DNA of 64,000 bases, from assembly GCA_012959995.1 (NCBI GenBank), contig DUCC01000012.1:1-64000 (forward strand). Direction: 5' to 3'. The DNA comes from Acidimicrobiia bacterium (GTDB taxonomy: Bacteria; Actinomycetota; Acidimicrobiia; Acidimicrobiales; MedAcidi-G1). This document shows positions 181 through 57,325 of the stretch, one piece after another. Positions within the stretch are counted from its first letter, which is position 1. Each line of letters opens with the position of its first letter. Made by a program: the position numbers and the translations under genes. The notes beneath the pieces were generated by a model that did not search any database, was not told the DNA's origin, and saw nothing but the letters and a program-made list of their open reading frames with translations.

Positions 181-1158
181 ATGAGTTTCTTAAATGAAGT
201 AAAACGACACAATGTTGACGCTTTCGGCTACCGAATGCATGTGGCCGAAATGGGTGAAGGGCCGCTGGTGTTGTTTGTGCATGGGTTTCCCGAATCTTGG
301 TATTCGTGGCGCAACCAACTGCCGGCATTGGCAGCTGCCGGGTACCGAGCCGCCGCTATAGACGTGCGTGGTTATGGATCGTCGGCCACCCCAGAAGGGT
401 TCGACGCTTACCGGTTGGTGGATTTAGCTGCCGATTGTGTTGGGGTGGTTCAAGCCCTCGGTGAAACCACGGCCACCATCGTGGGTCACGACTGGGGTTC
501 CCCTATAGCGGCTGCCGCCGCCCGTTTACGGCCCGATGTTTTTACGGCAATGGCATTACTGAGCGTGCCTTATGATGCCCGTAACGATCACCGGCCTTCC
601 GAGACCTTCGCCAGTTTCAGCGATACCGAAGAGTTTTACATCACCTATTTCCAAAAACCGGGGCAGGCCGAAGCAGAAATAGCAAAAGACCCCCGCCGTT
701 GGTTAGCGGGCTTTTACTTCTCAGCGTCAGGGGACTGCCCGCCACCTGAACCGGGGCAAAAATCTATGGGGTTCGTGCCTCCCGGCGGCTTGCTAAGCGA
801 CGGATTTTCTTATCCCTCCAGCCCACTGGAGTGGATGACCGACGCAGATTTAGACTTCTACACGGCAGAGTTTGCCAAGGCCGGATTTACCGGTGGGCTC
901 AACCGCTACCGGTGCATTGACTATGACTGGGTTGATCTGCGAGCTTGGCATCATGCAGCTATTAGGCAGCCCTCGTTGTTTATTGGTGGAGAAAAAGACG
1001 GCCCCACACAATGGGGGGCGGGCGCCATTAGCCGGTATCCAGAGACTTTGCCAGGCCTTCGGGGGACCCACATTTTAGAGGGGGCCGGTCACTGGCTGCA
1101 GCAAGAAGCAGCGGAGACGGTGAACGACTTGTTACTGGAGTTCCTCGACGGGCTTTAA
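181..1158 (+). CDS. Epoxide-hydrolase-like alpha/beta hydrolase
   Basis: This 325-residue protein has the alpha/beta-hydrolase layout of soluble epoxide hydrolases and haloalkane dehalogenase relatives. The oxyanion motif HGFPESW is at residues 34-40, DVRGYGSS at 61-68, and the nucleophile elbow GHDWGSP at 102-108, giving Asp104 as nucleophile. The likely catalytic histidine is His304 in GAGHW near the C-terminus. An aspartate nucleophile followed by W fits the epoxide hydrolase branch better than esterases. No signal peptide is visible, so it is probably cytosolic. The ATG at 181 follows AAAGGAAACT, a good ribosome-binding site. The substrate is unknown. It is separated from the permease downstream by 47 bp, so a shared transcript is possible but not shown. 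Confidence 0.88.
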   Translation: MSFLNEVKRHNVDAFGYRMHVAEMGEGPLVLFVHGFPESWYSWRNQLPALAAAGYRAAAIDVRGYGSSATPEGFDAYRLVDLAADCVGVVQALGETTATIVGHDWGSPIAAAAARLRPDVFTAMALLSVPYDARNDHRPSETFASFSDTEEFYITYFQKPGQAEAEIAKDPRRWLAGFYFSASGDCPPPEPGQKSMGFVPPGGLLSDGFSYPSSPLEWMTDADLDFYTAEFAKAGFTGGLNRYRCIDYDWVDLRAWHHAAIRQPSLFIGGEKDGPTQWGAGAISRYPETLPGLRGTHILEGAGHWLQQEAAETVNDLLLEFLDGL

Positions 1159-1205: not shown

Positions 1206-3290
1206 ATGTCGGACAACAAATCAGGAAAACTAACCCGCTCATTGGGCTTGCGCCATGTGTTTTCGCTGTCTACCGGAGCGATGCTTTCTTCGGGTCTTTT
1301 TTTGCTCCCGGGTTTGGCGGCTGCTAAAGCCGGGCCGGCCGCCATATTGGCTTATCTAATAGCGGGAGTGTTTGCCGTGCCAGCCATGCTGAGTGTGGCC
1401 GAACTTTCTACGGCCCTTCCCAAAGCGGGCGGGGCTTACTATTTTCTAGAGCGTGCTCTCGGGCCGGCGGTGGGTACGGTAGCCGGGTTCGGCACTTGGC
1501 TTTCTCTGGTACTCAAAGATGCTTTCGCCATGGTAGGCATGAGTGCTTATTTGGTATTGGTTTTAGATGTCAACACCACTTGGTTGGCCTTGGCGCTCAT
1601 TGGTTTTTTTACTTTCATCAATGTGGTGGGCTCGAAAGCCAGCGCTTCGGTGCAGTTGGCCATGGTGGCGTTTGTTATTGCGGTCATGGGGTGGTTCTTG
1701 GTTGAAGGGCTTTGGGAAACAAAAGCCCGTGGTCTTGATGATCCAAACCTAGAGCCCTTCTTCACCACTGGGTCATCGGGGGTGATGGCCGTGGTGGGTT
1801 TGGTGTTTGTTTCCTATGGCGGGCTTACCAAAGTGGCTAGTGCAGCGGAGGAAGTGGAAGACCCTTCGCATCGCATTCCTTTAGGTATGGCGCTTTCGTT
1901 GGGGGTAGCCACCTTGCTTTACACTTTGGGGGTTTTGGTGGCGGTGGTGGTGGTTCCTCCGGAGCAGTTGCATCAAGATTTAGCACCTATTCACACTGCG
2001 GCGGTGGCCGTGCTGCCTCCGTTGGGGGTAGGACTTATCGTTATCGCTGCGTTGGCTGCTTTTGCTTCGGCGGTAAATGCCGGCATTATGGCGGCCGCTC
2101 GCTACCCCATGGCCATGGCTCAGGATGGCTTGTTGCCCGCCCGTTTGGGAGGCATTGGTAAGTTTGGTACCCCCACGGTGGGGGTAGTTATGACCGGTTC
2201 GTCTATTGCGGTGGTGGTCTTGATTTTTGATGCAGAGGCCATAGCTAAGTTGGCGAGTGCTTTTGTTTTGTTGACTTTGGGTTTGGTTAACTTGGCGGTC
2301 TTGGTGTTGCGGGCTTCTCGTATCCAGTCTTACGCCCCGGCTTTTCGGGCGCCTTTGTATCCGTTTACGCAGTTTGCTGGTCTTGCCGTGTCGGTGTATT
2401 TGATATGGCAGTTGGGCCCGGTGCCTCAGTTGTTTGTTTTGATAGTCAGTGTGGTGGCCTGGACGTGGCATCACTTTTACGCTCAGGGCCGCACCAAACG
2501 AGCCGGCGCTATCCGCCATGTTTTTGAGCGGTGGGGTTCCGAAGTCGATAGAGGTCTTGACCGTGAGATGAGTGCGGCCATGGCCGGCCACGGCTTGCGT
2601 GATGTTGACGACTACCACGGTTTGATCGCTCGGGCTTCGGTGTTGTCAATCCCCGAGGGCACAGATATTTCCGAGGCCGCTGATCGGGCGGCCACCGTGT
2701 TGTCGGATCAAATTGGCTTATCGCGAGAACGAGTCACGGAGCGCTTTTTAGAGACTGGTTCTTTGTGGATCCAGCCGTCAAGCGACCACCCGACGGCTAC
2801 CCCTGTGGCTTTGTTCGAGGCCATTGATGACGACCAGTTAGTGATCGTGCGTTCGGCTGCTGGTATACGTATTCCGGCTGCTTGGGGGGGTTCGGGCGAA
2901 CGAGTGAACGCTCTCTTCTTTTTGGCGGGTACCACGGCTAACGCGGGCCGGTCGCTTCGTTTGGCCGGCGAGTTAGCCAGCCACTTGCATACCGGGGCTC
3001 GTGAAGTGGGCGAGGCGGCGGATGAGGCATCCGTCAAGTCGGCGTTGTTGCCCGAGGCCATGATTACCCAATACACCTTGTTTCCCGAAGGCCTTGATGC
3101 GGCTTTGATCGGCAAAAAAGTGGGGGCGCTTGGTTTACCTAAAGGTGTTGAGGTAGCGGCATTGATTCGCTTCGGGGTGTCGTTGCCGGTGGAAGATGAA
3201 TTGGTGTTAGAAGCCGATGACCAACTCACCTTGGTGGGACCCGCCGAGGTCATGCCCGCTCCAGGGGCGCCTATTCCTGCCTCCCGGTAG
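1206..3290 (+). CDS. APC-family amino acid permease with EIIA-like and RCK_C-like cytosolic domains
   Basis: A 694-residue three-part protein. Residues 1 to about 430 form a 12-helix APC permease with the unwound-helix motif GAMLSSGLFLLPG at 24-36, which in this family contacts the amino acid backbone. Residues of about 473-616 resemble a PTS EIIA type-2 domain, with SSDHPTATPVALFEA where EIIA proteins carry the phosphorylatable histidine. Residues of about 617-683 look like an RCK_C/TrkA_C domain (LIGKKVGALGLPKG, then EADDQLTLVG). RCK_C domains bind small ligands and gate transporters, so transport is probably allosterically controlled. The substrate is unknown. The permease part is certain; the two soluble domain names rest on pattern recognition. 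It converges on the nitroreductase gene with a 37-bp gap. Confidence 0.88.
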   Translation: MSDNKSGKLTRSLGLRHVFSLSTGAMLSSGLFLLPGLAAAKAGPAAILAYLIAGVFAVPAMLSVAELSTALPKAGGAYYFLERALGPAVGTVAGFGTWLSLVLKDAFAMVGMSAYLVLVLDVNTTWLALALIGFFTFINVVGSKASASVQLAMVAFVIAVMGWFLVEGLWETKARGLDDPNLEPFFTTGSSGVMAVVGLVFVSYGGLTKVASAAEEVEDPSHRIPLGMALSLGVATLLYTLGVLVAVVVVPPEQLHQDLAPIHTAAVAVLPPLGVGLIVIAALAAFASAVNAGIMAAARYPMAMAQDGLLPARLGGIGKFGTPTVGVVMTGSSIAVVVLIFDAEAIAKLASAFVLLTLGLVNLAVLVLRASRIQSYAPAFRAPLYPFTQFAGLAVSVYLIWQLGPVPQLFVLIVSVVAWTWHHFYAQGRTKRAGAIRHVFERWGSEVDRGLDREMSAAMAGHGLRDVDDYHGLIARASVLSIPEGTDISEAADRAATVLSDQIGLSRERVTERFLETGSLWIQPSSDHPTATPVALFEAIDDDQLVIVRSAAGIRIPAAWGGSGERVNALFFLAGTTANAGRSLRLAGELASHLHTGAREVGEAADEASVKSALLPEAMITQYTLFPEGLDAALIGKKVGALGLPKGVEVAALIRFGVSLPVEDELVLEADDQLTLVGPAEVMPAPGAPIPASR

Positions 3291-8517: not shown

Positions 8518-8970
8518 ATGCAGATCTCCCTCACCATTAACGGCACCGAGTATTGCGAAGAAGTGGAACCACGCACTCTCTTGGTGCATTTCATTCGAGA
8601 CCAACTGGGCTTAACCGGCACCAACATTGGTTGTGATACCAGTTCGTGCGGGGCCTGCACCATTTTGGTTGATGGCCAATCGGCCAAATCGTGCAACCTG
8701 CTGGCAGTACAAGCCGAAGGCTCTGAAATTACCACCATTGAAGGCCTCGCCGGCGAAGACGGACTCCACCCCATGCAGCAGGCCTTCCATGAATGCCATG
8801 CCTTGCAATGCGGGTATTGCACCCCCGGCATGGTGTTGGCTTCGGTATCGCTGGTTGAGGAATACCCCGACCTGGACGGTCAAGGAGTAAGAGAAGGTTT
8901 AGAGGGCAACTTGTGCCGCTGCACCGGTTATCAAAATATCGTCAAGGCCGTTTTGTCGGTCGGTAAATAG
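8518..8970 (+). CDS. coxS: Small [2Fe-2S] subunit of a molybdenum hydroxylase (form II CoxS-like)
   Basis: A 150-residue iron-sulfur subunit with two [2Fe-2S] sites: an N-terminal plant-ferredoxin-like site ([16 protein letters not shown] and a later SC) and a C-terminal helical site (CGYCTPG then CRCTG). These are the electron-transfer clusters between the molybdenum and FAD subunits in the xanthine oxidase family. The gene is 12 bp upstream of the large subunit and shares its operon. The ATG at 8518 is preceded by GGGATTGAG, a moderate ribosome-binding site. The order S-L-M differs from the classic M-S-L of form I CO dehydrogenase operons. Confidence 0.94.
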
Positions 8971-8982
8971 GGGAGAAACAAA

Positions 8983-11370
8983 ATGACCGTTACTGATGAC
9001 ACTGTCACCACCTCCGGGATTATTGGCCAACCCCGGCTTCGTAAAGAAGACCCGGCGCTCCTCACCGGTGAAGCAAAATTCATGGATGACTTGGCGCTGC
9101 CCGGTGCGCTTTGGGTTCACTGTGTGCGTAGCCCCCACGCTCACGCCACCATTGTTTCTATTGACACTTCAGCCGCTCTGGCCACCGAAGGGGTAGAAGC
9201 GGTTTATACCGGAGCCGATTTGGCAGATCTCTGGGAGGCGCCGTTGCCCTGCGCCTGGCCAGTCACCGATGACATGAAAAGCCCCGATTATTGGCCGGTA
9301 GCGCAAGGAAAAGTATGCCATGTGGGTGACATCGTGGCTGTGGTAGTAGCTAGTTCACGCTACACCTCGGCCGATGGCGCCGAAGGGGTAGTTGTTGACT
9401 ATGAGGTATTGCCCGCAGTGATTTCGATAGAAGATGCCGTGACCGATGAAGTGGTGATCCATGAAGGCCTGGGTAGCAATGTTTCCTATGAATGGCCACT
9501 CATCCCTGACCCTGAAGGGGTTGAAGCGGCTTTCGCCAACGCCACTCATCACATCACCGAAACCTATGTGCATCAACGGTTGATTCCGGCGCCCATGGAA
9601 CCTCGGGGGGTAGCGGCGGTGCCTTCGCCACATAACGGCGACATGATCCTTTACTCTTCCACCCAAATCCCGCACATTTTGAAAGTGATGGCCGCCCTCA
9701 CCGCAGGTATTCCCGAACACAAACTGCGAGTAATCGCTCCTGCAGTGGGTGGAGGGTTCGGTTGTAAATTGGGTGTCTATCCCGAAGAAATTATTTGCTT
9801 GACGCTGGCCCTGCGCCATGGAGTACCAATTCGTTGGACCGAAGGCCGTACCGAAGCAGCTACCGCCACCATTCAGGGGCGGGCGCAACGCCAAACCATT
9901 GAGCTGGCGGCCGACGAAAACGGCAAACTTCTGGCCGTTCGAGCCACCTTGTTGGCCGACATGGGGGCTTACTTACAGCTAATCACCCCCGGAGTGCCGC
10001 TGTTGGGGGCCTTTCTTTTCCACGGCCTTTACGACGTGCCGCTTTATTCGTTTACTTGCAAAAGCGTGTTTACTAACTTGACCCCCACCGATGCCTATCG
10101 TGGTGCTGGGCGACCAGAAGCCACTTATGCCATTGAGCGGGCTATGGATGTTTTGGCTCTTGAGGTGGGCGTCGGCCCCGACGAGATTCGGTCACTTAAC
10201 TTCATCCCCACCGAGAAGTTCCCCTACGACTCACCGGCCGGACTGGTTTTTGACTCGGGCGACTACCAACCCGCTTTAGACCGTGCCAAAGAACTCATTA
10301 ATTGGGAGGATCGCCGGGCCGAACAAGCCGAGCGCCGAGCGACTGGATCAAAAACTCATCTTGGCTTAGGTATCTCTACCTACGTTGAAATGTGTGGCCT
10401 CGCCCCGAGCCGGGTATTGGCATCACTGAACTACGGCGCCGGTGGTTGGGAATCTGCCACCGTGCGCATTCTTCCTACCTGCAAAGTTCAGGTGGTCACT
10501 GGCGCCACCCCCCACGGCCAAGGACACGAGACCGCTTGGTCCATGATTGTCGCTGACCGTTTGGGGGTGGACCCAGATGACGTTGAGGTGTTGCACTCCG
10601 ACACGGCCATTTCACCGCTGGGGTTGGATACGTATGGCTCTCGTTCTTTGTCGGTCGGGGGTACTGCTATTTGGATGGCTACCGAAAAAGTGGTGGAAAA
10701 AGCGTCGCTTATTGCTGCCCACATGCTTGAAGCCAACGCTGACGACCTTGAGTTGGCCAACGGCGTGTTTAGCGTAAAAGGTACCCCGGGGGCTGAAGTT
10801 CCTTTAGCCGGCGTGGCCTTTGCCGCCTTTACCGCCCATGATTTGCCCGATGGGTTAGAACCCAACCTGCAAGCCGAAGTCACTTGGGACCCGCCAAACT
10901 TCACCTTCCCGTTTGGGGCACATATTGCTTTGGTGGAGATTGATGAAGAAACTGGTGAGGTTGAGATCATCGACTATGCGGCCGTTGATGATTGCGGCAA
11001 TCAAATCAACCCCATGATTGTCGAAGGCCAAGTACACGGCGGCATTGTGCAAGGCATCGGTCAAGCCCTTTGGGAAGAAGCGGTTTATGACGAAGACGGG
11101 CAGTGCCGATCTACCAACTTAGGTGACTATTTGGTGCCGTCGGCCGCCGAAACGATCGACATGAAACTTGACCATACAGTGACCCCATCGCCTACTAACC
11201 CGTTGGGGGTTAAAGGTATTGGCGAAGCGGGGACCATCGCTTCGACCCCGGCGGTGATGAACGCCGTGGTAGATGCTTTACGGCATCTCGGGGTGACCGA
11301 AATGGCTATGCCAGCATCACCCATGCGGGTGAGGCGAACTATTGAGGCCGCTCAAGGAGGTGTGTCATGA
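8983..11370 (+). CDS. coxL: Large molybdopterin subunit of form II CO-dehydrogenase-like hydroxylase
   Basis: A 795-residue xanthine-oxidase-family catalytic subunit. The active-site loop at residues 371-377 reads AYRGAGR, the signature of form II CoxL, not AYxCSFR of form I, which carries the Cu-binding cysteine for CO oxidation. The C-terminal GVKGIGEAGT holds the catalytic glutamate. Molybdopterin-binding segments AVGGGFGCK and GATPHGQGH are present. Form II enzymes have disputed or unknown substrates, so CO oxidation should not be assumed; a purine or other heterocycle or aldehyde oxidation is equally possible. It is flanked by coxS (12 bp) and coxM (ATGA overlap). No coxDEF maturation genes lie nearby. 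Confidence 0.94.
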   Translation: MTVTDDTVTTSGIIGQPRLRKEDPALLTGEAKFMDDLALPGALWVHCVRSPHAHATIVSIDTSAALATEGVEAVYTGADLADLWEAPLPCAWPVTDDMKSPDYWPVAQGKVCHVGDIVAVVVASSRYTSADGAEGVVVDYEVLPAVISIEDAVTDEVVIHEGLGSNVSYEWPLIPDPEGVEAAFANATHHITETYVHQRLIPAPMEPRGVAAVPSPHNGDMILYSSTQIPHILKVMAALTAGIPEHKLRVIAPAVGGGFGCKLGVYPEEIICLTLALRHGVPIRWTEGRTEAATATIQGRAQRQTIELAADENGKLLAVRATLLADMGAYLQLITPGVPLLGAFLFHGLYDVPLYSFTCKSVFTNLTPTDAYRGAGRPEATYAIERAMDVLALEVGVGPDEIRSLNFIPTEKFPYDSPAGLVFDSGDYQPALDRAKELINWEDRRAEQAERRATGSKTHLGLGISTYVEMCGLAPSRVLASLNYGAGGWESATVRILPTCKVQVVTGATPHGQGHETAWSMIVADRLGVDPDDVEVLHSDTAISPLGLDTYGSRSLSVGGTAIWMATEKVVEKASLIAAHMLEANADDLELANGVFSVKGTPGAEVPLAGVAFAAFTAHDLPDGLEPNLQAEVTWDPPNFTFPFGAHIALVEIDEETGEVEIIDYAAVDDCGNQINPMIVEGQVHGGIVQGIGQALWEEAVYDEDGQCRSTNLGDYLVPSAAETIDMKLDHTVTPSPTNPLGVKGIGEAGTIASTPAVMNAVVDALRHLGVTEMAMPASPMRVRRTIEAAQGGVS

Positions 11371-12185
11371 TCCCCGCCGCCGTTGGATACATCCGAGCCG
11401 ACTCTGTTGAAGCAGCGATTGCTGCGTTAGGGGAGCACGGTGATGAAGCCAAGTTGCTGGCCGGTGGTCAGTCGCTGATTCCTTTGATGCGCTTGCGGTT
11501 AGCGGCGCCTTCCATGCTGGTTGATGTGGCGGGCATCACTGAACTTTCTGGTATCTCCATTGAAGGCGACACGGTGTCCATTGGAGCCATGACCACCCAT
11601 AGTGTTCTGGAGCATTCAGCAGAACTCGCCGCGGTTTGCCCGTTGTTGGCTCATGTGGCTTCGGTGGTGGGTGATCCGGCCATTAGGCATCGAGGAACAC
11701 TTGGCGGTTCGTTAGCTCATGCCGATCCGGCTTCGGACCTGCCGGCGGCCGTGTTGGCGCTGGGGGGGACTCTGGTGGCTTCGGGGCCAAACGGAACCCG
11801 TGAGATACCAGTCACTGAGTTTTTCACCGGTTTTTTTGAATCCACTTTGGCTGATGATGAAATATTGACGGAAATTAAGGTGCCGGTTTCTACCGGTGGT
11901 TGGGCTTATCAAAAGTTCAACCGGCGAGCCCAAGATTGGGCCATTGTGGGAGCCATGGTGGCTGAGGGTGGCGCCGGGGTTGCTTTGGTCAACATGGGGG
12001 CGACTCCGTTGCGGGCTGGAGGGGTTGAAGCGGCGGTGGCCGGTGGAGCGACGGCGGCCGATGCGGCGGCCAGTGCACCAGACGGCACAGACCCTTCTTC
12101 AGACAACAATGGGGATGCTGCTTACCGTGAACATTTGGTTCAAGTGCTGACTGGTCGAGCGTTACGAGAAGCGGGTGTCGCTTGA
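11367..12185 (+). CDS. coxM: FAD-binding medium subunit of molybdenum hydroxylase (CoxM-like)
   Basis: A 272-residue FAD subunit of the xanthine oxidase/CO dehydrogenase family. AGGQSLIPLMRLRL and HRGTLGGSLAHADPASDLPA are the two conserved FAD-binding loops of this class. The start overlaps the coxL stop as ATGA, indicating coupled translation. Residues after about 220 (an Ala-rich stretch with TAADAAASAPDGTDPSS) look like the variable C-terminal tail. It passes electrons from the iron-sulfur subunit to an acceptor, probably a quinone or NAD; the acceptor is unknown. The downstream lipoprotein gene overlaps its 3' end by 11 bp. Confidence 0.93.
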   Translation: MIPAAVGYIRADSVEAAIAALGEHGDEAKLLAGGQSLIPLMRLRLAAPSMLVDVAGITELSGISIEGDTVSIGAMTTHSVLEHSAELAAVCPLLAHVASVVGDPAIRHRGTLGGSLAHADPASDLPAAVLALGGTLVASGPNGTREIPVTEFFTGFFESTLADDEILTEIKVPVSTGGWAYQKFNRRAQDWAIVGAMVAEGGAGVALVNMGATPLRAGGVEAAVAGGATAADAAASAPDGTDPSSDNNGDAAYREHLVQVLTGRALREAGVA

Positions 12186-22246: not shown

Positions 22247-23023
22247 GTGAGTGAAAGTGAATACGGGCTGGCTGCCTTACTTCGCGAGGCTTACACGGCT
22301 TCTGCTCTTTTGCCTCTGCGTGACCGCATGCCTGAAGTCAGCGTGGCCGCCGCTTACCGCATCCAAGACCTCAACACCGCTTGGTGGGTAGCCCAAGGCC
22401 GAGAGCCAGTGGGACGCAAAATTGGTTTGACCTCGCCAGCGGTGCAACAACAACTCGGCGTTGACCAACCCGACATGGGGGTGTTATTTGCCGACACCCA
22501 AGTAGCCGATGGCGCCGCCGTCGATCTCAACGGCTATTTGCAACCCAAGATTGAAGCTGAAATAGCTTTAGTTCTCGCCCACGACCTTGAAAACCCTGCC
22601 CCCACGGTGGCCGAAATAGAAAAAGCAGTGGACTACGTGGTGCCGGCTATAGAAATTGTGGACAGTCGCATTGCTGACTGGGACATCAAAATCTATGACA
22701 CGGTGGCCGACAACGGTTCTTCAGCCGGGTTCGTGTTGGGCAGCACGCCCAGAGCACTCGGCGAACTTGATTTGCTGCTGTGTGGCATGAAAATTACCTG
22801 TGGTGAGGAAATTATTTCTTCCGGTGTCGGAGCCGCCTGCTTAGGTCACCCGCTGAACGCTGCCGCGTGGCTCGCCCAATACCAAGCCAGTACTGGTGTG
22901 CCTTTGCGAGCGGGAGAAATTGTGTTGACCGGTGCTTTGGGGCCTATGGTGGTCGCCGTCGCTGGTGAAACCTATGACATAGATATCAACGGGGTAGGAG
23001 AGGTAAGCGTGAGTTTTCAATGA
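22247..23023 (+). CDS. dmpE: 2-oxopent-4-enoate hydratase
   Basis: A 258-residue member of the fumarylacetoacetate-hydrolase-like hydratase family. [38 protein letters not shown] and [16 protein letters not shown] follow the DmpE pattern (IKIQDTVADN in DmpE), not the DmpH one. It adds water to 2-oxopent-4-enoate, giving 4-hydroxy-2-oxovalerate, the substrate of the aldolase encoded two genes on. GTG start at 22247; the product end overlaps the next start (ATGA). The paralogue at 24977 fits the decarboxylase. The split is by motif similarity and is fairly sure. Confidence 0.88.
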
Positions 23024-23958
23024 GTGAAGTAGCAGCCAAAGTGGCCATCATCGGGTCGGGCAACATTGCCTCTGACCTGATGATCAAAATTAAGCGACTC
23101 TCAGAATCTTTGGAGATGACGGCCATGGCGGGCATCGACCCGGAGTCCGATGGCTTAGCCCGCGCAAAACGCATGGGGGTGGCGACCACCAGCGAAGGGA
23201 TCGACGGCCTAGTGGCTTTAGATGAGTTCGCCGATATCTCGCTGGTTTTTGATGCCACCTCAGCCGGGGCACACGCCCACCATGCCGCAGTGCTGGCCAC
23301 CCACGGCAAACAAGTAATCGACCTCACCCCAGCGGCCATCGGCCCGTATGTCGTGCCGCCAGTCAACCTTGATGTCAACCTTGAAGCTCCCAACCTCAAC
23401 ATGGTGACCTGCGGCGGACAAGCAACCATTCCTATGGTGGCTGCTTTGGCGGCTCATGCTGAAGTGCATTACGCCGAGATCGTGGCTTCCATTGCTTCAC
23501 GCTCGGCTGGCCCCGGTACGCGAGCCAACATTGATGAGTTCACCGAAACCACTTCGCGGGCAATAGAAAAAATAGGCGGCGCCACCCACGGAAAAGCCAT
23601 CATTGTGTTGAACCCGGCGGAGCCACCGCTGACCATGCGCGACACCGTGTTTTGCCTTACCGGACCCGGCGACCAAGGAGCGATGCGTCAAGCGGTGGAA
23701 GCCATGGTGGCCGATGTGCGAGCTTACGTGCCCGGCTACCGGCTTAAACAAGACGTACAGTTTGAAGCTATTGAAGAACCTTTGTTGTTGCCGGGTATCG
23801 GCACGTTTAGCGAAGGCTGGAAGGTCACGGTGTTTTTAGAAGTGGAAGGCGCCGCCCACTATTTGCCTTCTTACGCCGGGAACTTAGACATCATGACCTC
23901 GGCGGCTTTACGCACCGGTGAACAAGTAGTGGCGGCCCGAAAAGGAGCATCCTCGTGA
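23020..23958 (+). CDS. dmpF: Acetaldehyde dehydrogenase (acylating)
   Basis: A 312-residue NAD-dependent acylating acetaldehyde dehydrogenase. [14 protein letters not shown] at the N-terminus is the Rossmann nucleotide loop; [17 protein letters not shown] contains the catalytic cysteine (MVTCGGQ). It converts acetaldehyde and CoA to acetyl-CoA, and in meta-cleavage pathways forms a channelling complex with the aldolase DmpG, encoded next with a GTGA overlap. That coupled arrangement, and length close to 312, match DmpF/MhpF. It is the final step of the tryptophan route to acetyl-CoA. Confidence 0.95.
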
Positions 23959-24980
23959 CTGTCGTTGACCGTCTTTACATCTCTGACGTCACCTTGCGTG
24001 ACGGCATGCATGCCATTAATCATCAATATGACCTCGACACTGTGCGGTCTATCGCCGCGGCGCTTGATGCCGCCGGGGTGGACTCCATTGAGATCGCTCA
24101 TGGTGATGGCTTAGCCGGGTCAAGTTTTAACTACGGCTTTGGCCTGCACACCGACGCTGAATGGATAAGCGCAGTGGCCGAGGTGGTCACCCAAGCCCGT
24201 ATCACGGTGCTCTTGTTGCCCGGTATCGGCACCATTGATGACCTCCGTCAAGCTCATGACCTCGGGGCCACCTCGGTGCGGGTGGCCACCCATTGCACCG
24301 AAGCCGATGTGGCTCTCCAGCATTTAGCCGAAGCCCGCAACTTGGGTATGGACACGGTGGGTTTTTTGATGATGTCCCACATGAACGACCCGGAGCCTTT
24401 AGCTCAACAAGCCAAAATAATGGAAGATGCGGGAGCACAATGCGTCTATGTGGTTGATTCAGCTGGTGCTATGCATATGAACGACATTGCGGCCCGCTTC
24501 GAAGCCTTTGATCGAGTGCTGCAACCGGAAACTGAGCGAGGGATGCATGCCCATCACAACCTGGCTCTTGGGGTAGCCAACGCAGTGATCGCCGTAGAAC
24601 ACGGGGTGACCCGGGTTGATGCTTCGTTGGCGTCTATGGGGGCGGCCGCGGGTAACACGCCGTTAGAAGCTTTTATCGCTACTGCGGATCGCTTGGGTTG
24701 GAACCACGGGTGTGACCTTTTTGCCTTGATGGATGCTGCCGACGATTTGGTACGCCCGTTGCAAGACCGGCCGGTACGGGTAGATCGAGAAACCTTGTCT
24801 ATTGGCTATGCCGGGGTGTACTCCAGCTTTTTGCGTCACGCCGAACGAGCAGCGGCCGCCCACGGGCTAGAAACCCGTGAGGTGCTGGTGGAAGCCGGCC
24901 GCCGCCGTTTGGTTGGGGGCCAAGAAGACATGTTGATGGATATCGCCTTAGACATGGTGGCCAAAAAGGAACAAGCATGA
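23955..24980 (+). CDS. dmpG: 4-hydroxy-2-oxovalerate aldolase
   Basis: A 341-residue DRE-TIM-family metalloaldolase. The N-terminal [17 protein letters not shown] contains the LRDG catalytic/metal motif, [15 protein letters not shown] follows, and [15 protein letters not shown] supplies the two histidine metal ligands. It cleaves 4-hydroxy-2-oxovalerate to pyruvate and acetaldehyde, and the latter is channelled to DmpF upstream. The start overlaps the dmpF stop (GTGA), and the stop overlaps the next gene (ATGA). Confidence 0.95.
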
Positions 24981-25750
24981 TTGAGATTCAAGCAATAGCC
25001 GAGCGGTTAGATGCGGCCCAGGCTCAAGCAACCGCTATTGACCAACTCGCCGAACCGTTAGACATCGCCGAGGCCTACCAGGTGCAAACGGCTTTATTGG
25101 CGCTGCGAGTTAACCGTGGCGAAACCCTTACCGGGGTCAAGATGGGCTTTACCTCGGCCGCCAAACGAGAACAAATGGGGGTCGATGACCTCATCTTTGG
25201 TGTGCTCACCGACGCCATGGCCATAGATAACGGCGGCACCACCGGCCTGACCGCCTATGTGCACCCGCGGGTAGAACCTGAGGTGGCTTTTCGTCTCGGA
25301 AAAACCGTGTCTGGGGACCTCTCGCTCGGCGAAGCCCGGTTGGCCGTTGATGCGGTGGCTCCGGCGCTCGAGATCATTGATTCTCGTTACCGAGACTTCA
25401 AGTTTTCGTTAAGCGATGTAGTGGCCGATAACTGTTCGTCAGCGGGTTATGTGCTGGGGCCTTGGCAAAATCAAACCGACTTACTTGACGACACCACCAA
25501 CTTGGGCATGGTCATGAGCGTCAACGGGCAACAAGTGCAGGTGGGGAGCAGCGCCGCCATTAGCGGCAACCCGTTGCAGTCGGTGATAGATGCCGCCCGC
25601 TTAGCCAAAGAATGCGGTGCCGAACTCCCAGCCGGCAGCATCTTGTTAGCGGGGGCCGCTACGGCAGCGGTACCGCTAGAAGCAAACAGCACGGTCACCT
25701 TGGCTGTGCAGCATTTGGGCGAAATTTCTTTTCGGGTAGTGGGCTCATGA
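24977..25750 (+). CDS. dmpH: 4-oxalocrotonate decarboxylase
   Basis: A 257-residue FAH-fold paralogue of the hydratase at 22247. [37 protein letters not shown] and [18 protein letters not shown] match DmpH (IDSRYENFKFDL, TAAVP) better than DmpE. It would decarboxylate 2-oxohex-3-enedioate (from aminomuconate after deamination) to 2-oxopent-4-enoate. DmpE and DmpH usually form a complex, and both are present in one operon. ATGA overlaps on both sides show tight coupling. Confidence 0.88.
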
Positions 25751-26199
25751 GCGACCAGTCCTCAACCAGCAACTCTGGAGTCCAAGATTCGGGGGTTATT
25801 GCCGGCAAAGCCCAACCACGCGGCAAGTACCCGCATTACCGCCGTGCCGGGGATTTTATTTTTGTTTCTGGCACCAGTTCTCGCCGCCCCGACGACACTT
25901 TTGTGGGTGCGGAAGTGGACTCTGCTGGCCAAACCACTTTCGACATAAAAGCTCAGACTCGGTCAGTGATCGAAAATATTGCCGACACCTTGCATGCCGC
26001 CGGATCAGACCTCAGCAATGTGGTGGAGATCTCGTCGTTTTTGATTGATATGGAAGATTTTGCTGGCTACAACGAGGTGTACGGCGAGTTTTTTGATCAC
26101 GACGGCCCGGCCCGTACCACGGTGGCTGTGCATCAGTTACCTCACCCGCTGATCCGTATCGAAATTAAAGCCGTCGCTTACCACCCGCAAGAAAAATAA
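25747..26199 (+). CDS. amnD: 2-aminomuconate deaminase, RidA/YjgF family
   Basis: A 150-residue RidA-fold protein. [20 protein letters not shown] and [20 protein letters not shown] match AmnD-type deaminases, and the C-terminal [13 protein letters not shown] carries the Arg that binds the carboxylate in RidA proteins. By context it deaminates 2-aminomuconate to 2-oxohex-3-enedioate plus ammonia, as nbaF/amnD do. The frame is open from 25612 but the conserved protein begins at ATG 25747, overlapping the upstream stop (ATGA). A general RidA housekeeping role is the alternative, but the pathway context is strong. Confidence 0.85.
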
Positions 26200-26209
26200 G
26201 GAGTAGCCC

Positions 26210-26749
26210 ATGCCTGACGCAAGAAGTTTGAAGGCTTTCAATTTTAAAAGCTGGATTGACGATCATCGTGACCTCTTAAAGCCCCCGGTCAACAACAAGT
26301 TGATTTGGGAAAACAGCGACCTGATGGCTTTTGTAGTGGGCGGGCCCAACGTGCGCACCGACTATCACGATGACCCGGTAGACGAGTTCTTTTACCAAAT
26401 CGAAGGTGACATGTTCTTGCGGATAGTCGAAGAATCTGGCCAACCCCCGATTGATATTGAGATCAAAGAGGGCGAAGTGTTTTTCTTGCCTGCGCATACT
26501 CGTCATTCGCCGCAACGCCCGGACGCTAACAGCGTGGGTTTGGTCATTGAACCGGCTCGGCCTCCCGGCGCAGCGGACGCTTTTGAGTGGTATTGCCCAC
26601 AGTGCTTTGCCTTGGTTTATCGAGCGGAGGTCATCTTGAACTCCATCGTGGATGACCTCCCACCGCTGTTTAGTGCTTTTTATGACAGTGAAGAAAAGCG
26701 CACTTGTGGTTCGTGCGGCCACCTGCACCCCAGCCGGGATGAAGCGTGA
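26210..26749 (+). CDS. nbaC: 3-hydroxyanthranilate 3,4-dioxygenase
   Basis: A 179-residue cupin extradiol dioxygenase. The catalytic iron ligands are His53 and Glu59 in DYHDDPVDEFFYQ, and His96 in LPAHTRHS. Two Cys pairs (CPQC at 129-132 and CGSC at 166-169) form the additional rubredoxin-like iron site characteristic of the bacterial enzyme. It opens 3-hydroxyanthranilate to 2-amino-3-carboxymuconate semialdehyde (ACMS). The good ribosome-binding site AAGGAGTAGCCC precedes ATG 26210. The next gene overlaps its stop. Confidence 0.96.
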   Translation: MPDARSLKAFNFKSWIDDHRDLLKPPVNNKLIWENSDLMAFVVGGPNVRTDYHDDPVDEFFYQIEGDMFLRIVEESGQPPIDIEIKEGEVFFLPAHTRHSPQRPDANSVGLVIEPARPPGAADAFEWYCPQCFALVYRAEVILNSIVDDLPPLFSAFYDSEEKRTCGSCGHLHPSRDEA

Positions 26750-27744
26750 AAATAGATATTCATGCGCATTTTTTTCCTGAGGTCAGCCGGGAAGAAGCCC
26801 AAGTTTTAGGTGTTGAAGATGCCCCTTGGCTGCGGGTAGACAACGACCAAGCGGGAATGATTATGGCCGGTGATCGGGAATACCGCCCGGTCCACGCTCC
26901 CCTTTGGGATCCGCATGCCCGTTTGGCCGAGATGGACGTCAACGGGGTGGACATTCAGGTCATTTCGGCTACGCCGATTCTCTTTTCCTATGTGGGTGAC
27001 CCCGACCGAACCACCCAGTGGGCTGCACAAATAAATGATTTGGCGTTAGAAATGTGTGCTGCCGACTCTCAACGCTTGCGCCCTCTCTGCCAGGTGCCGC
27101 TACAAGATCTCGATCGAGCATGTCAAGAGGTTTCTCGAGCGGTGACCGCCGGCCATGTCGGGGTGCACATCGGTAACCATGTGGAAGGCCGCAACCTCGA
27201 TGACCCGACTATGTTGGCTTTTCTTGAGCATTGTGCTGGTGAAGGTATTCCGGTGCTGGTGCACCCGTGGTCCATGATGGCGGCAGAACGGATGCCGAAA
27301 TACATGTTGCAATGGTTGGTGGGCATGCCGGCCGAAACTCATTTAGCTATTTTGTCGCTGATTCTGTCGGGGGCTTTTGAACGCCTGCCCCGCGACCTAA
27401 AAATCTGCTTTGCTCACGGGGGCGGCAACTTTGCCCAACAACTGGGGCGGGTAGAGAACGCTTGGCATCGTCGGGACATTGTGCGCCAAGACTGCCCGCG
27501 CCCTCCTTCAGAATATGTGGAGCGCTTTAGTGTGGATTCAGCGGTGTTTGATGACACCACTTTGCGTTTCCTGCTTGATGTAATGGGGGAGTCGCGGGTG
27601 CTTATGGGCTCCGACTACCCGTTTCCTTTGGGAGAAATCCACCCCGGCAAGATGATCGAAGAGTCACCATTATTTAGCGACGCAACTCGCCAAGCAGTGC
27701 TTTACGACAATGCGGCAAACTTTTTTGGAGTAGGAAATGACTGA
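26746..27744 (+). CDS. nbaD: 2-amino-3-carboxymuconate-6-semialdehyde decarboxylase (ACMSD)
   Basis: A 332-residue amidohydrolase-fold decarboxylase. MKIDIHAHFFPE gives the HxH zinc ligands (His6, His8); HPWSMMAAERMPKYML, FAHGGGNFAQQLGR and MGSDYPFPLGE supply the later His and Asp. It decarboxylates ACMS to 2-aminomuconate semialdehyde, steering flux away from quinolinate and NAD synthesis towards degradation. The GTG start overlaps the dioxygenase stop (GTGA), and its end overlaps kynureninase by 8 bp. The next enzyme expected, aminomuconate-semialdehyde dehydrogenase, is not found in this window. Confidence 0.95.
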   Translation: MKIDIHAHFFPEVSREEAQVLGVEDAPWLRVDNDQAGMIMAGDREYRPVHAPLWDPHARLAEMDVNGVDIQVISATPILFSYVGDPDRTTQWAAQINDLALEMCAADSQRLRPLCQVPLQDLDRACQEVSRAVTAGHVGVHIGNHVEGRNLDDPTMLAFLEHCAGEGIPVLVHPWSMMAAERMPKYMLQWLVGMPAETHLAILSLILSGAFERLPRDLKICFAHGGGNFAQQLGRVENAWHRRDIVRQDCPRPPSEYVERFSVDSAVFDDTTLRFLLDVMGESRVLMGSDYPFPLGEIHPGKMIEESPLFSDATRQAVLYDNAANFFGVGND

Positions 27745-29032
27745 AGTTTTTGACCTCACCGAGGCCTGCGCCCAACGCCTTGACGACCAAGACCCGATGG
27801 CTTCTTTTCGCCACGAGTTCGTGTTGCCCGTCACCCCAGAAGGAGAAACCGAAACCTATTTGGTGGGCAACTCACTGGGTATACCGCCGGCCCAAACCGG
27901 CGCATATCTGCAAGCAGAGTTTGCCAAATGGGGCAAGATGGGAGTGCGAGGCCACGAGGTGACCGACCAAGAGCCCGACTACCCGTGGGCCTCTTATCAA
28001 GAGTCGTTGGCTGGCCCCATGGCCGAACTGGTGGGCGCTAAACCCGAAGAGGTCACGGTAATGAACAGCCTGACCACCAACTTGCATTTGTTGATGGTCA
28101 GTTTTTACCAACCCACCGCTCAGCGGTTCAAAATCCTTATTGAAGGGCACGCTTTTCCTTCGGACCATTTCGCCGTGGAATCTCAAATACGGCAACGAGG
28201 CTTCGACCCAACCGGCGCACTGGTCACCGTGGACCCCCGGCCCGGAGAAGACTGCCTAAGAGAAGAAGACATCGCCGCGGCCATAGAACAACACGGCGAT
28301 CAACTGGCTTTGGTGTTGTTCCCCGGCGTGCAGTACTACACCGGCCAAGTGTTCGACATGGCAAGCATCGCCACTCAAGGCCACGCCGTGGGAGCCATGG
28401 TGGGCTTCGACTTGGCCCATGCGGTAGGCAACATTGAGTTAGAACTGCATGATTGGGATGCCGACTTTGCCGCCTGGTGCACCTACAAATACCTCAACTC
28501 GGGGGCCGGAGCCACCGCCGGATGCTTCGTGCATCAACGCCACATCACCCGCACCGACCTGCCGCGTTTCGAAGGCTGGTGGGGCACCAACAAGGCCACC
28601 CGTTTCGAAATGGAAAACGTATTTGACCCCATACCCACCGTTGAGGGGTGGCAAACCTCAAACCCACCAGTGTTTGCCATGGCGCCTATTCGGTCATCGC
28701 TAGAAGTCTTTACCCGAGCAGGCGGCATGGGCCCCTTGCGAGAAAAAACCGAAAAACAAATCGCTTACCTGGATTTCTTGTTGGCCCAAGAATTGCCAAC
28801 AGAAATACAAAACATCACCCCGCAAGACCTTGCACAACGAGGCTGCCAGTTCTCTTTGCGGGTCATGCCTGGGCATCGGCCCGGACGAGAAGTCTTCGAA
28901 GCATTGGAAGCCGCAGGGGTGGCTTGCGACTGGCGTTACCCCGATGTGATCCGCATCGCCCCCGTGCCGCTCTACAACACGTTTCTTGATATTTATCGCT
29001 TTGTGCAAATACTTAAAGAAATGCTGCAATGA
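27737..29032 (+). CDS. kynU: Kynureninase
   Basis: A 431-residue PLP enzyme of fold type I. YLVGNSLGIPP and MNSLTTNLHLLM near the N-terminus, DLAHAVGN for the aspartate contact, and WCTYKYLNSGAGATAG containing the PLP lysine match kynureninase. It cleaves 3-hydroxykynurenine to 3-hydroxyanthranilate and alanine. It starts 8 bp inside the ACMSD gene and overlaps the monooxygenase start (ATGA). Length is close to the family norm of about 420. Confidence 0.95.
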   Translation: MTEVFDLTEACAQRLDDQDPMASFRHEFVLPVTPEGETETYLVGNSLGIPPAQTGAYLQAEFAKWGKMGVRGHEVTDQEPDYPWASYQESLAGPMAELVGAKPEEVTVMNSLTTNLHLLMVSFYQPTAQRFKILIEGHAFPSDHFAVESQIRQRGFDPTGALVTVDPRPGEDCLREEDIAAAIEQHGDQLALVLFPGVQYYTGQVFDMASIATQGHAVGAMVGFDLAHAVGNIELELHDWDADFAAWCTYKYLNSGAGATAGCFVHQRHITRTDLPRFEGWWGTNKATRFEMENVFDPIPTVEGWQTSNPPVFAMAPIRSSLEVFTRAGGMGPLREKTEKQIAYLDFLLAQELPTEIQNITPQDLAQRGCQFSLRVMPGHRPGREVFEALEAAGVACDWRYPDVIRIAPVPLYNTFLDIYRFVQILKEMLQ

Positions 29033-30378
29033 GCAAACACCTGACCATTATTGGGGCTGGCCCAGCGGGGTCCATGCTGAGCGTTTTGTTGGCTCGGCAA
29101 GGCCACACCGTCACGGTCTACGAGAGCCGCCCCGACATGCGCATCACCGATATTTCGGCCGGGCGTTCCATCAACCTGGCTTTGGCCACTCGAGGCATTG
29201 AGGCCTTGAAAGCCATTGGGGTTATGGAAGAGGTGGAGCCCTCGCTGATTCCGATGTATGGGCGCATGATCCACGACGAAGACGGGCAAACATCGCTCCA
29301 AACTTATGGAAGCCGCCCCCATGAATACATCAGCTCGGTGTCCCGTACGGCGCTGAACAGTGTGTTGCTTGACGCCGCTGAAGCCACCGGCCGGGTAACC
29401 ATTCATTTCGACATGCGTTGCCGGGGCGTGGACTTTGACCAGAACCTCCTCACCTTTACCAGAGGTGAAGAAACGGTGGAGGTTCCCTTTGTCATGGTAT
29501 TTGGCACCGACGGTTCGGCTTCGGCAGTGCGAGAGTCGGTGTTGGAAGCCAACGGGGGTCAACTAACTTTGGAGCCTTTAGTGCACGGCTACAAAGAACT
29601 CACTTTGCCCGCCGGCCCCCACGGGGAGTTTCTTATCGAGCGAGCGGCCTTACATATTTGGCCCCATAAAGACTTTATGTTGATCGCTTTGCCCGACCCC
29701 GACGGCTCTTTTACCGTCACCATATATTTGCCCGTGGAAGGCCCGGGCAACACCTTTGAACAACTAGTTACCGACGAACAAGTAACCGACTTCTTTGCCC
29801 AGCACTTCGCAGACTTTGCGGCCCTGGCTCCCGACCTGACCGCCCAGTTTGCCGCCAACCCTTTGGGCTTGTTGGCTACCGTGCGCACCACCGGGTGGGC
29901 TTTTCAAGACCGTGCGGTCTTGCTGGGTGATGCCTCACACGGGGTGGTGCCTTTTCATGGTCAAGGCATGAATGCGGCGTTTGAATCATGTATTGAACTC
30001 GACCGTTTTCTCAAAGAGCACCCTGACGATTGGGCAACGGCCTTTGCCGCTTTTGAACAAAGCCGCAAACCAGACACCGACGCCATTGCTGACATGGCGG
30101 TCGACAATTATGTTGAGATGAGCACCAGCGTGGTTGATGAGCGCTACGTGCTGAAGCGAGCGTTGGCCCTAGAAATGGAAAAACGTTGGCCCGAAACGTT
30201 TGTGCCGCGCTACGGCATGGTCATGTTCAGCACCGTTCCGTACGCGGTGGCCCAAAGCCGGGCTCGGGCTCAGGGAAAGATTTTAGATCAACTCACGGCC
30301 GGGATTGCCACAGTGGATGAGGTGTGTTGGGAAACCGCCGCTGCCTTGGTGGCTGACCTCGAACCGCTACCCAGTTAA
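29029..30378 (+). CDS. kmo: Kynurenine 3-monooxygenase
   Basis: A 449-residue group-A flavin hydroxylase. IIGAGPAGSMLSVLLARQGH is the FAD dinucleotide loop, RSINLALATRG and GDASHGVVPFHGQGMNAAFE bind FAD and substrate. It hydroxylates kynurenine at C3 with NADPH and oxygen. No formamidase gene (N-formylkynurenine hydrolysis) was identified beside it; the alpha/beta hydrolase at 33266 or the metal-dependent genes elsewhere might supply it. Overlap with kynureninase (ATGA). Confidence 0.94.
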   Translation: MSKHLTIIGAGPAGSMLSVLLARQGHTVTVYESRPDMRITDISAGRSINLALATRGIEALKAIGVMEEVEPSLIPMYGRMIHDEDGQTSLQTYGSRPHEYISSVSRTALNSVLLDAAEATGRVTIHFDMRCRGVDFDQNLLTFTRGEETVEVPFVMVFGTDGSASAVRESVLEANGGQLTLEPLVHGYKELTLPAGPHGEFLIERAALHIWPHKDFMLIALPDPDGSFTVTIYLPVEGPGNTFEQLVTDEQVTDFFAQHFADFAALAPDLTAQFAANPLGLLATVRTTGWAFQDRAVLLGDASHGVVPFHGQGMNAAFESCIELDRFLKEHPDDWATAFAAFEQSRKPDTDAIADMAVDNYVEMSTSVVDERYVLKRALALEMEKRWPETFVPRYGMVMFSTVPYAVAQSRARAQGKILDQLTAGIATVDEVCWETAAALVADLEPLPS

Positions 30379-53777: not shown

Positions 53778-55316
53778 TTAAACGAAGCTGTCGGGAATCT
53801 CTTCTTTGCGCCGGGCCATGAAATCTAACAAAGACTCGTCAATGGACTCATCTAGAGCAGGAGCCTCATACTCGGCGAGCTGCTTTTTCCAAATAGCGTT
53901 GGCCCGTTGAGCGGCATCCAAACTGCCGTCTTCTTCCCATTTCTCATAGCTGTCGTTGTTGGCAATCTCCGAGCGAGCAAAGGCTGTTTCAAAGTTGGCG
54001 TAGGTGTGAGCGGCCCCCAAGAAGTGTTGCCCCGGGCCTACCTCGCGGATTGCATCCATGGCTTGGCCGTTTTCGCTGAGGTCAACACCGGCCACCAACT
54101 TGGACATCAACCCGCATTGGTCGGCATCAATGATGAACTTTTCGTAACCCATGCTGAGCCCGCCTTCGAGCCAGCCCGCAGAATGCAACATAAAGTTTAC
54201 TCCACCCAATAAGGATGGCAAGAGGGTGGCCATGCTTTCGGCCGCTGCTTGCGCATCAGCAATTTTGGATCCACACAGGCTGCCCCCGGAACGAAATGGC
54301 ACACCCAAACGTCGAGCTAAAGCGCCGATGGTAAAAAGCACTAAGGCTGGTTCGGGAGTGCCAAAGGTGGGGGCGCCGGTTTGCATAGACATGGAGGAGG
54401 CAAACGAGCCAAAGACCACCGGTGCCCCGGGGTTAACTAATTGTACGAAGGTCATGCCAGCTAAGGCCTCGGCCAGGGTCTGTGCGGCGACTCCGGCCAC
54501 CGTTACTGGGGCCATGGCGCCGGCTAAAATAAAGGGGCTGATGACGGTGGCCTGCATGCTTTTGGCGTAGGCCTCGGCCGCTCCCAACATGGTGGCATCC
54601 CATGATAAAGGCGATGAAGCATTGATGAGGCTGGTCATCACCGTGTTTTGGCTTACAAACTCATCACCAAAAACGAACTTGGCCATGTCAATAGAATCTT
54701 GCGCTCGTTCGGCCGCAGTAACCGAACCCATGAAGGGTTTATCGCCGTAACGCAAATGGGCGTAAACCATGTCGAGGTGGCGGTGAGAAACGGGGATATC
54801 TACCGGCTCGCAAACCGTTCCTCCGGTGGAGTGCATGTGAGGGCTGAGGTAAGCCAACTTGACGAAGTTTCGAAAATCTTCGATGGTGGCGTAGCGGCGG
54901 CCTTGGTCGAGGTCGCGTACAAAGGGCGGCCCATAAGCAGGGACAAATACTGTGGCGTCGCCACCGATTTGCACGCTTCGCGCTGGGTTGCGAGCATGAT
55001 GGGTGTACATGCTTGGTGCGTTAGCGGTAATGATTTCTCGACACATGCCCCGGGGAAAGCGCACCCTTTCGCCATCTACTGAGGCCCCAGCATTTTTTAA
55101 TAAAGTAAGAGCCGAAGGGTAGTCACGAAAGTCAATACCAATTTCTTCCAAAATGGTGTCGGCGTTTTTTTCAATTTGAATCAGGCCTTCTTCAGGAACT
55201 AACTCCACCGGGGCAATAGAGCGAGTGAGGTAGGGCTTGACCTCTGCGGTGTTTTCGCGGCGAGCAGCCTGGCGAGCCGAGCGGCCGCCAGATCGACGAC
55301 GGGGAGTTTCACTCAT
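53778..55316 (-). CDS. mttB: MttB-family corrinoid methyltransferase (non-pyrrolysine)
   Basis: A 512-residue TMA methyltransferase superfamily protein encoded in one uninterrupted frame without an internal TAG. The region around GGSLCGSKIADAQAAAES (residues 344-361) aligns with the pyrrolysine neighbourhood of MttB but has ordinary residues. Such non-Pyl relatives (MtgB, MtpB, MtcB, MtyB) demethylate quaternary amines such as glycine betaine, proline betaine or carnitine onto a corrinoid protein. The N-terminus, RRRSGGRSARQAARRE, is basic. Substrate not determined. ATG at 55316 has AAGGAAGACCCC before it. It closes the operon that starts at 59909. Confidence 0.9.
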   Translation of the reverse strand: MSETPRRRSGGRSARQAARRENTAEVKPYLTRSIAPVELVPEEGLIQIEKNADTILEEIGIDFRDYPSALTLLKNAGASVDGERVRFPRGMCREIITANAPSMYTHHARNPARSVQIGGDATVFVPAYGPPFVRDLDQGRRYATIEDFRNFVKLAYLSPHMHSTGGTVCEPVDIPVSHRHLDMVYAHLRYGDKPFMGSVTAAERAQDSIDMAKFVFGDEFVSQNTVMTSLINASSPLSWDATMLGAAEAYAKSMQATVISPFILAGAMAPVTVAGVAAQTLAEALAGMTFVQLVNPGAPVVFGSFASSMSMQTGAPTFGTPEPALVLFTIGALARRLGVPFRSGGSLCGSKIADAQAAAESMATLLPSLLGGVNFMLHSAGWLEGGLSMGYEKFIIDADQCGLMSKLVAGVDLSENGQAMDAIREVGPGQHFLGAAHTYANFETAFARSEIANNDSYEKWEEDGSLDAAQRANAIWKKQLAEYEAPALDESIDESLLDFMARRKEEIPDSFV

Positions 55317-55329
55317 AGGGGTCTTCCTT

Positions 55330-57324: not shown

Positions 57325-57325
57325 G

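Follow-up and report, generated by a model that had tools for sequence, protein, structure and literature searches.

An APC permease of an Acidimicrobiia bacterium with a C-terminal RCK_C domain and an EIIA-Ntr-like domain that lacks the phospho-histidine

Introduction

The CAT-type APC transporters GkApcT and MjApcT are the nearest solved sequences and folds for the membrane part of the permease analyzed here, and to our knowledge neither has a C-terminal tail of the kind described below. The APC-type fold is also shared with KimA (8b71), and an RCK_C domain is tied to a transporter in the c-di-AMP-regulated proteins CpeA and KtrA, as it is here. In contrast to CpeA, KtrA, and KimA, neither the c-di-AMP signature nor the synthase was found for the present protein. 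The SLC4 exchangers (band 3, AE2, and BTR1) differ from it in being eukaryotic, in having another membrane fold and an N-terminal cytosolic domain, and are not known to have RCK_C. Their cytosolic domain is reported to have an EIIA-like fold (PMC4664831), and an EIIA-like fold on a transporter is what the present protein has as well.

In E. coli and Salmonella, EIIA-Ntr (PtsN) acts on transport proteins in trans. It is reported to bind TrkA and KdpD (PMC5024086), and unphosphorylated PtsN is described as silencing the CPA1 antiporter YcgO, which has RCK and CorC domains, by attaching to its cytoplasmic tail, probably at CorC (PMC11808508). The EIIA-Ntr fold is thus paired with RCK-bearing transport proteins, as in the present permease, but here the two are joined in cis on the chain of an APC permease, and the phospho-histidine is missing. 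APC permeases fused or adjacent to UspA have already been reported from haloarchaea (PMC3102087). These haloarchaeal proteins resemble the present one in a related membrane part, the TM3 Lys, the TM6 G-x-T-K motif and a fused regulatory module, but have Usp where the present protein has the pseudo-EIIA and RCK_C domains.

Here we describe a permease encoded on contig DUCC01000012.1 of an Acidimicrobiia bacterium; the window denotes the whole 64-kb stretch that was analyzed. No published description of the three-domain architecture was found in searches of one open-access library, and the protein is best read as a new domain combination within a known kind, namely APC permeases to which a cytosolic regulatory module is fused.

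Results

Domain architecture

An open reading frame of 694 amino acids was confirmed at 1206-3290 on the forward strand (Table 1). A chance origin is excluded because the gene recurs in 49 further genomes. An earlier note, made from the sequence alone, had described an APC transporter followed by EIIA type-2-like and RCK_C/TrkA_C-like parts, and these were found to be real by Pfam, predicted folds, and profile comparison; its idea of a cytosolic regulatory module on a permease is supported as well. The full-length model had a pLDDT of 83.4 and a pTM of 0.80, and an AlphaFold2 model of residues 427-694 had values of 78.2 and 0.78. In the full-length model the linker between membrane part and C-terminal domains forms helices at 436-443 and 449-460, and its mean identity to the window protein is 0.81 in subgroup A and 0.52 in subgroup B (defined below). 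The window protein had no Pfam match to Usp, the defining feature of the haloarchaeal APC-UspA fusions.

Table 1. Features of the permease gene and its upstream neighbour (positions in the window)
Feature	Position	Strand	Basis
alpha/beta hydrolase gene, directly upstream	181..1158	+	Pfam Abhydrolase_1, 7.6e-30
APC-fold membrane domain, residues 1-425	1206..2480	+	Pfam AA_permease_2; full-length model compared to GkApcT 6f34
Lys104, predicted helix 87-117 (taken as TM3), invariant	1515..1517	+	aligned rows
Linker, residues 426-467 (GAIRHVFERWG...DRGLDRE...)	2481..2606	+	domain identities; model helices
PtsN/EIIA-Ntr-like pseudo-EIIA domain, residues 468-618	2607..3059	+	VIA-align to 1a6j; hhalign to genuine EIIA
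Glu538, at the place of the EIIA phospho-histidine	2817..2819	+	alignments with 4gqx, 3urr, and 1a6j
TrkA_C/RCK_C domain, residues 619-684	3060..3257	+	Pfam TrkA_C; Foldseek 3jxo_B

The membrane part

The match to AA_permease_2 (residues 13-406, E 2.6e-46) places the protein among the APC amino-acid permeases. The full-length model was found to fit GkApcT 6f34 with Z 44.0 and an rmsd of 2.1 over 415 aligned residues, and KimA 8b71, which has the APC-type fold in common, with Z 39.9. The closest solved sequences were GkApcT 6f34 and 5oqt. The window protein is a CAT/ApcT-like APC transporter, with an amino acid or amine as its probable substrate.

Lys104 was K in all 54 rows that have a residue there (three of 57 rows are cut), as was its equivalent in the five aligned haloarchaeal relatives. 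Lys209 (window 1830-1832), in a membrane helix, was K in 50 of 55 rows. These two lysines mark this permease subfamily, from which the ApcT-type TM5 Lys is missing. That lysine is presumably the proton-coupling residue of GkApcT and MjApcT, and its position was hydrophobic here in all 55 rows. To judge from these alignments, the coupling ion of the subfamily may differ from that of the ApcT-type proteins.

Both C-terminal domains are real

At E <= 1 the window protein was not matched by Pfam EIIA (PF00359), which matched one of the 26 members of the C-terminal alignment A1 (the window and 25 of the 49 loci) with E 0.23. All seven distant relatives, described below, had sub-threshold matches in this region, with E from 6.6e-5 to 0.475 and above 0.03 in three. 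Among the 11 mid domains of alignment A5 (window, three loci, and the seven distant relatives), seven matched at E <= 1 and the Pfam cut-off for EIIA was not reached.

The fold of the predicted structure is that of EIIA type 2. E. coli EIIA-Ntr 1a6j aligned to the model of residues 427-694 with Z 17.6 and an rmsd of 2.2 over 144 residues (model residues 42-192), and the four best structural matches were all EIIA-Ntr structures (Z 17.6, 16.9, 16.0, and 15.7). EIIA-Mtl structures ranked below these (Z 13.4-13.7), while the SLC4 cytosolic domains of band 3, AE2, and BTR1 scored Z 11-15. The top Foldseek match of the C-terminal model was PtsN 3urr (E 2.6e-6). A search of the PDB with the A5 profile gave four distinct sequences at E <= 10, all of them EIIA-Ntr proteins, with a best E of 0.0061. 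When the A5 mid domains were compared by hhalign to five genuine EIIA domains, drawn from the genomes of three of the distant relatives, the probability was 94 and E 1.4e-7; the sequence-only comparison of A1 alone to genuine EIIA gave a probability of 1.4, and A5 with its distant relatives was needed for the signal. The EIIA-like part is too diverged for Pfam in the clade of the window.

TrkA_C (PF02080) matched residues 631-682 with 31.8 bits against a cut-off of 27, and was present in all 26 members of A1. Foldseek related the C-terminal model to the TrkA ring protein 3jxo_B (E 3.7e-5), while the VIA-align table hardly covers the RCK_C part. Assignment to RCK_C/TrkA_C thus has both the Pfam match and a TrkA-like fold. 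The structure prediction of the C-terminus that the earlier note had suggested as a check therefore contains both folds, and since the TrkA_C match, the EIIA-Ntr model match, the distant PF00359 matches and the hhalign result agree, we regard an EIIA-Ntr-like and an RCK_C domain as confirmed.

The phospho-histidine is missing

Read by eye, residue 538 aligns with the active-site His of the PtsN stretch 'iph' in 4gqx, 3urr, and 1a6j. Across 57 rows (the window, 49 loci, and seven distant relatives) this residue is Glu in 28, Asp in 26, Gly in two, Tyr in one and His in none, so that Glu or Asp is found in 54 of 57; the Tyr and Gly residues belong to three of the seven distant relatives. At residue 583, the place of the second EIIA His, which we take to be functional in EIIA, His is kept in three of 57 rows. 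The phospho-accepting His that characterizes EIIA and EIIA-Ntr is therefore absent. The conserved Ser525 and His528 were also considered for this place and were dropped in favor of residue 538, to which both the order of strands in the model and the alignments with PtsN point. In EIIA-Ntr, H73E is reported to serve as a phospho-mimic (PMC6456747).

PTS and diadenylate cyclase genes in carrier genomes

Neither HPr (PF00381), diadenylate cyclase (DAC, PF02457) nor EIIA (PF00359) was matched in the genome of the window, which is 96.66% complete. The same searches were positive for HPr in seven, for DAC in 11 and for PF00359 in eight of 14 control genomes. Among the 49 other carrier genomes, HPr was found in one (L010) and DAC in two; the completeness of these genomes is not given, and so a single absence carries little weight and it is the pattern that counts. 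The genome partners, HPr for EIIA and diadenylate cyclase for a c-di-AMP-type RCK_C, are thus not found with the window protein. In the seven distant relatives DAC was present in all and HPr in four. L010, a metagenome-assembled genome labelled Gammaproteobacteria, has an Acidimicrobial permease gene as well as the sole HPr of the 49, and is perhaps a mixed bin.

The earlier note had the EIIA domain accept phosphate from HPr and proposed a search for PTS genes. This search yielded neither HPr nor PF00359 in the own genome. With the phospho-His missing from all 57 rows and HPr from the own genome and 48 of 49 carriers, phosphorylation by HPr is unsupported.

The RCK_C domain and c-di-AMP

Pfam detected no Rossmann domain RCK_N (TrkA_N) in the window protein (E <= 1), which does not contain a complete RCK. 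In TrkA-type proteins ATP and NAD are bound by RCK_N, and the nucleotide binding put forward earlier thus lacks the usual ATP/NAD site here.

The published c-di-AMP signature of RCK_C is (I/L)(I/L)x2DxRx5N(I/L)(I/L) (PMC10117811). Neither this strict form nor a looser one was found in any of 50 sequences (two of which, L049 and L030, are truncated there), and the core DxRx5N in none of 57 rows (L049, L030, and L052 being cut before or inside it). The control for this result is weak, as neither form occurred in 30 RCK_C matches from four genomes including that of the window; the core, read by eye, was seen in one of the 30 (L086). Two of six Streptomyces RCK_C domains are reported to bind c-di-AMP (PMC10117811), and the RCK_C of the chloride channel EriC is reported to give no c-di-AMP signal, with the full-length protein not ruled out (PMC5919688). 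Presence of RCK_C alone is therefore no proof of c-di-AMP binding. Six TrkA_C matches, spread over four open frames, were counted in the own genome, which has no DAC match. A c-di-AMP-like ligand, as suggested earlier, does not find support, since DAC is missing from the own genome and 47 of 49 carriers and the published signature is absent. The ligand of RCK_C may be other than c-di-AMP.

Distribution and conservation

A single search of genome contigs, with the C-terminal 268 residues as query, returned 49 loci in 49 further genomes. Counted by eye, 39 of these are labelled Acidimicrobiales, Acidimicrobiaceae, Acidimicrobiia, Candidatus Microthrix or MedAcidi bins, nine have general actinobacterial labels and one is labelled Gammaproteobacteria. 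Subgroup A (L001-L031 and L033) is 70-91% and subgroup B (L032 and L034-L048) 55-60% identical. L049 (65% over 167 residues) is cut short and belongs to neither subgroup; its neighbours are like those of L034, L042, and L043. Within the own order 27 of 248 genomes matched at E <= 1e-6, 18 of them strongly (E below 1e-120). At the level of the phylum eight of 296 genomes matched at E <= 1e-8, namely the own genome and the seven distant relatives, which keep the order APC, mid domain, and RCK_C with 35-40% identity over the matched part (BLAST). In one of the seven, L052, the frame stops early in RCK_C and the N-terminal part is encoded in a different frame, indicating a broken or misassembled gene.

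Mean identities to the window protein for the membrane part, pseudo-EIIA, and RCK_C were 0.78, 0.81, and 0.58 in subgroup A (27 rows), 0.62, 0.65, and 0.42 in subgroup B (16 rows), and 0.46, 0.29, and 0.21 in the distant relatives (seven rows; six for RCK_C). For these values L003, L010, L022, L027, and L030 were omitted from subgroup A, and L049 is in neither group. L003, L010, and L022 are cut at the 5' end, and L027, L030, and L049 at the 3' end; cut rows were counted wherever the residue was present, and L052 was read in one frame only. Pseudo-EIIA is thus as strongly conserved in the clade as the membrane part, and conservation is lowest in RCK_C. With identities no lower than those of the membrane part in both subgroups, pseudo-EIIA is no relic in decay.

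The clade has a specific conserved pseudo-EIIA patch (LWIQPS..HPTATP, WGGxGE, NALFFLAG, and GRxLRLAGEL), of which LWIQPS..HPTATP is absent from the distant relatives. Together with the slow evolution of the domain, the lack of this motif in the distant relatives points to a function that was gained or fixed in the clade of the window.

Haloarchaeal permeases with other regulators

When plasmid records were searched in translation, 241 matched, 118 being from Salmonella, and no match reached 80% coverage of the query. Haloarchaeal permeases ranked highest, and 10 of the top 11 matches were inspected (H9, of the same species as H8, was omitted). The five that were aligned (H2, H4, H5, H6, and H11) were 0.39-0.44 identical to residues 1-425 of the window protein, and all five share its TM3 Lys and its G-x-T-K motif in TM6. 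Usp was fused in four of five scanned haloarchaeal permeases (in L098 below the Pfam cut-off), the fifth having no tail, and Pfam matched neither EIIA nor RCK_C in these five proteins.

A TrkA-type gene was located within 2.5 kb at six of the 10 loci (H2, H4, H5, H8, H10, and H11), in four of them (H2, H4, H5, and H8) as the next upstream gene on the same strand; none was annotated at H1, H3, H6, and H7, and the plasmid gene table is incomplete. On haloarchaeal plasmids a short TrkA_N-type protein is encoded directly upstream of the APC permease (L099:2070-4672, L098:2034-4690, and L106:2076-4672), overlapping it by four bases in L099 and L106. The TrkA_N assignment is by Pfam for L098 and L099 and by annotation for L106. 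This protein might gate the permease as a separate subunit.

Discussion

We tentatively favor, at somewhat short of an even chance, that the C-terminus is a regulatory module, consisting of a phosphorylation-dead EIIA-Ntr and an RCK_C domain, on a CAT/ApcT-like permease and acting via a ligand, an ion or a partner. The module would be cytosolic and probably dimeric, and would alter the transport rate on binding an ion, a metabolite or a partner protein, presumably without phosphate transfer and without c-di-AMP. Candidate binding places are RCK_C and/or the clade-specific patch of pseudo-EIIA. The window protein could then be read as a cis version of the action of PtsN on transport proteins, minus the phosphate transfer. 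The own genome has no HPr, DAC or PF00359 match, and the haloarchaeal kin of the membrane part are tied to other regulators, both of which agree with such a module. Against it, the low conservation of RCK_C weakens the case for a conserved ligand site there, and subgroups A and B have no functional neighbour in common.

A more specific proposal is that the acidic residue at the phospho-His place acts as a permanent phospho-mimic by which pseudo-EIIA holds or releases RCK_C, the pair signalling K+ or ionic conditions to an amino-acid transporter that serves osmotic balance. The nearest folds are those of EIIA-Ntr (Z 15.7-17.6), with EIIA-Mtl scoring lower (13.4-13.7), EIIA-Ntr is reported to bind TrkA and KdpD (PMC5024086), the tail of YcgO, silenced by PtsN, is described as containing an RCK domain (PMC11808508), Glu or Asp is found in 54 of 57 rows where H73E is a reported phospho-mimic (PMC6456747), and six of 10 haloarchaeal loci have a TrkA-type gene closer than 2.5 kb. 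However, three of seven distant relatives have Tyr or Gly at the phospho-His place, the PtsN contact proposed in YcgO is CorC and not RCK (PMC11808508), the loci H1, H3, H6, and H7 are without an annotated TrkA-type gene, and the five scanned haloarchaeal proteins have no Pfam match to EIIA or RCK_C. We consider this proposal unlikely. A C-terminus that serves dimerisation or stability only, without a signalling role, seems possible but rather doubtful. RCK_C domains dimerise, and SLC4 cytosolic domains largely serve as interaction platforms. The latter have the same EIIA-like fold (Z 11-15; PMC4664831), but the clade-specific conserved patch exceeds what a scaffold would seem to need.

The earlier note suggested that transport may be gated by carbon/phosphate state, with phosphate taken from HPr, together with a nucleotide second messenger. 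Its idea of a regulatory tail is supported, whereas the gating by HPr phosphate and a c-di-AMP-like messenger is not. Both domains do belong to the right folds, and the distant relatives have DAC (7/7) and often HPr (4/7), but the phospho-His (0/57) and the c-di-AMP signature are absent, and the own genome and nearly all carriers have no HPr or DAC match. We regard it as highly improbable; for the clade of the window, PTS gating and c-di-AMP gating are both unsupported. The ancestral module might have used such signals, as DAC occurs in two of 49 carriers and all seven distant relatives, and HPr in four of the latter.

Returning to the regulatory module acting via a ligand, ion or partner, its origin could be pictured as follows, though we hold this scenario to be speculative and its probability low. 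An EIIA-Ntr would have been captured by an APC permease, frozen as a phospho-mimic by Glu or Asp, and re-evolved in Acidimicrobiales into a new ligand or gating surface via RCK_C, leaving a cis-fused and PTS-free descendant of the PtsN/K+ switch in control of amino-acid or amine uptake.

The permease presents a PTS-type domain that is well conserved on a transporter in genomes without detectable HPr, which allows EIIA-like domains to be studied without phosphate, as in band 3. The comparison further suggests that related APC permeases bear different regulators, pseudo-EIIA and RCK_C in Actinomycetota and Usp, often with a TrkA-type neighbour, in haloarchaea. These differences make the coupling of sensor and transporter testable through domain exchange.

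The gene neighbourhood was followed as a clue to the substrate and led nowhere, as subgroups A and B share no conserved neighbours. Subgroup A has the alpha/beta hydrolase and acyl-CoA-type genes as neighbours, none of which is found in subgroup B. In the window the hydrolase ends 47 bases before the permease, and half of the sources (25 of 50, counting the window and 49 loci) have it upstream in the same orientation with gaps of 9-95 bases; the two genes are perhaps co-transcribed.

Elsewhere in the window, acetaldehyde dehydrogenase and DmpG-type genes are located at 23020-24980 and genes for an amidohydrolase, a kynureninase and an FAD monooxygenase at 26746-30378, and the region 23020-30378 looks like a tryptophan/kynurenine catabolic island. 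At 53778-57405 a trimethylamine methyltransferase family protein (MTTB, E 1.2e-223) adjoins a RACo-type reductive activator, a pair for which demethylation of methylated amines is possible. A three-subunit molybdenum hydroxylase (2Fe-2S, molybdopterin, and FAD subunits) is encoded at 8518-12185.
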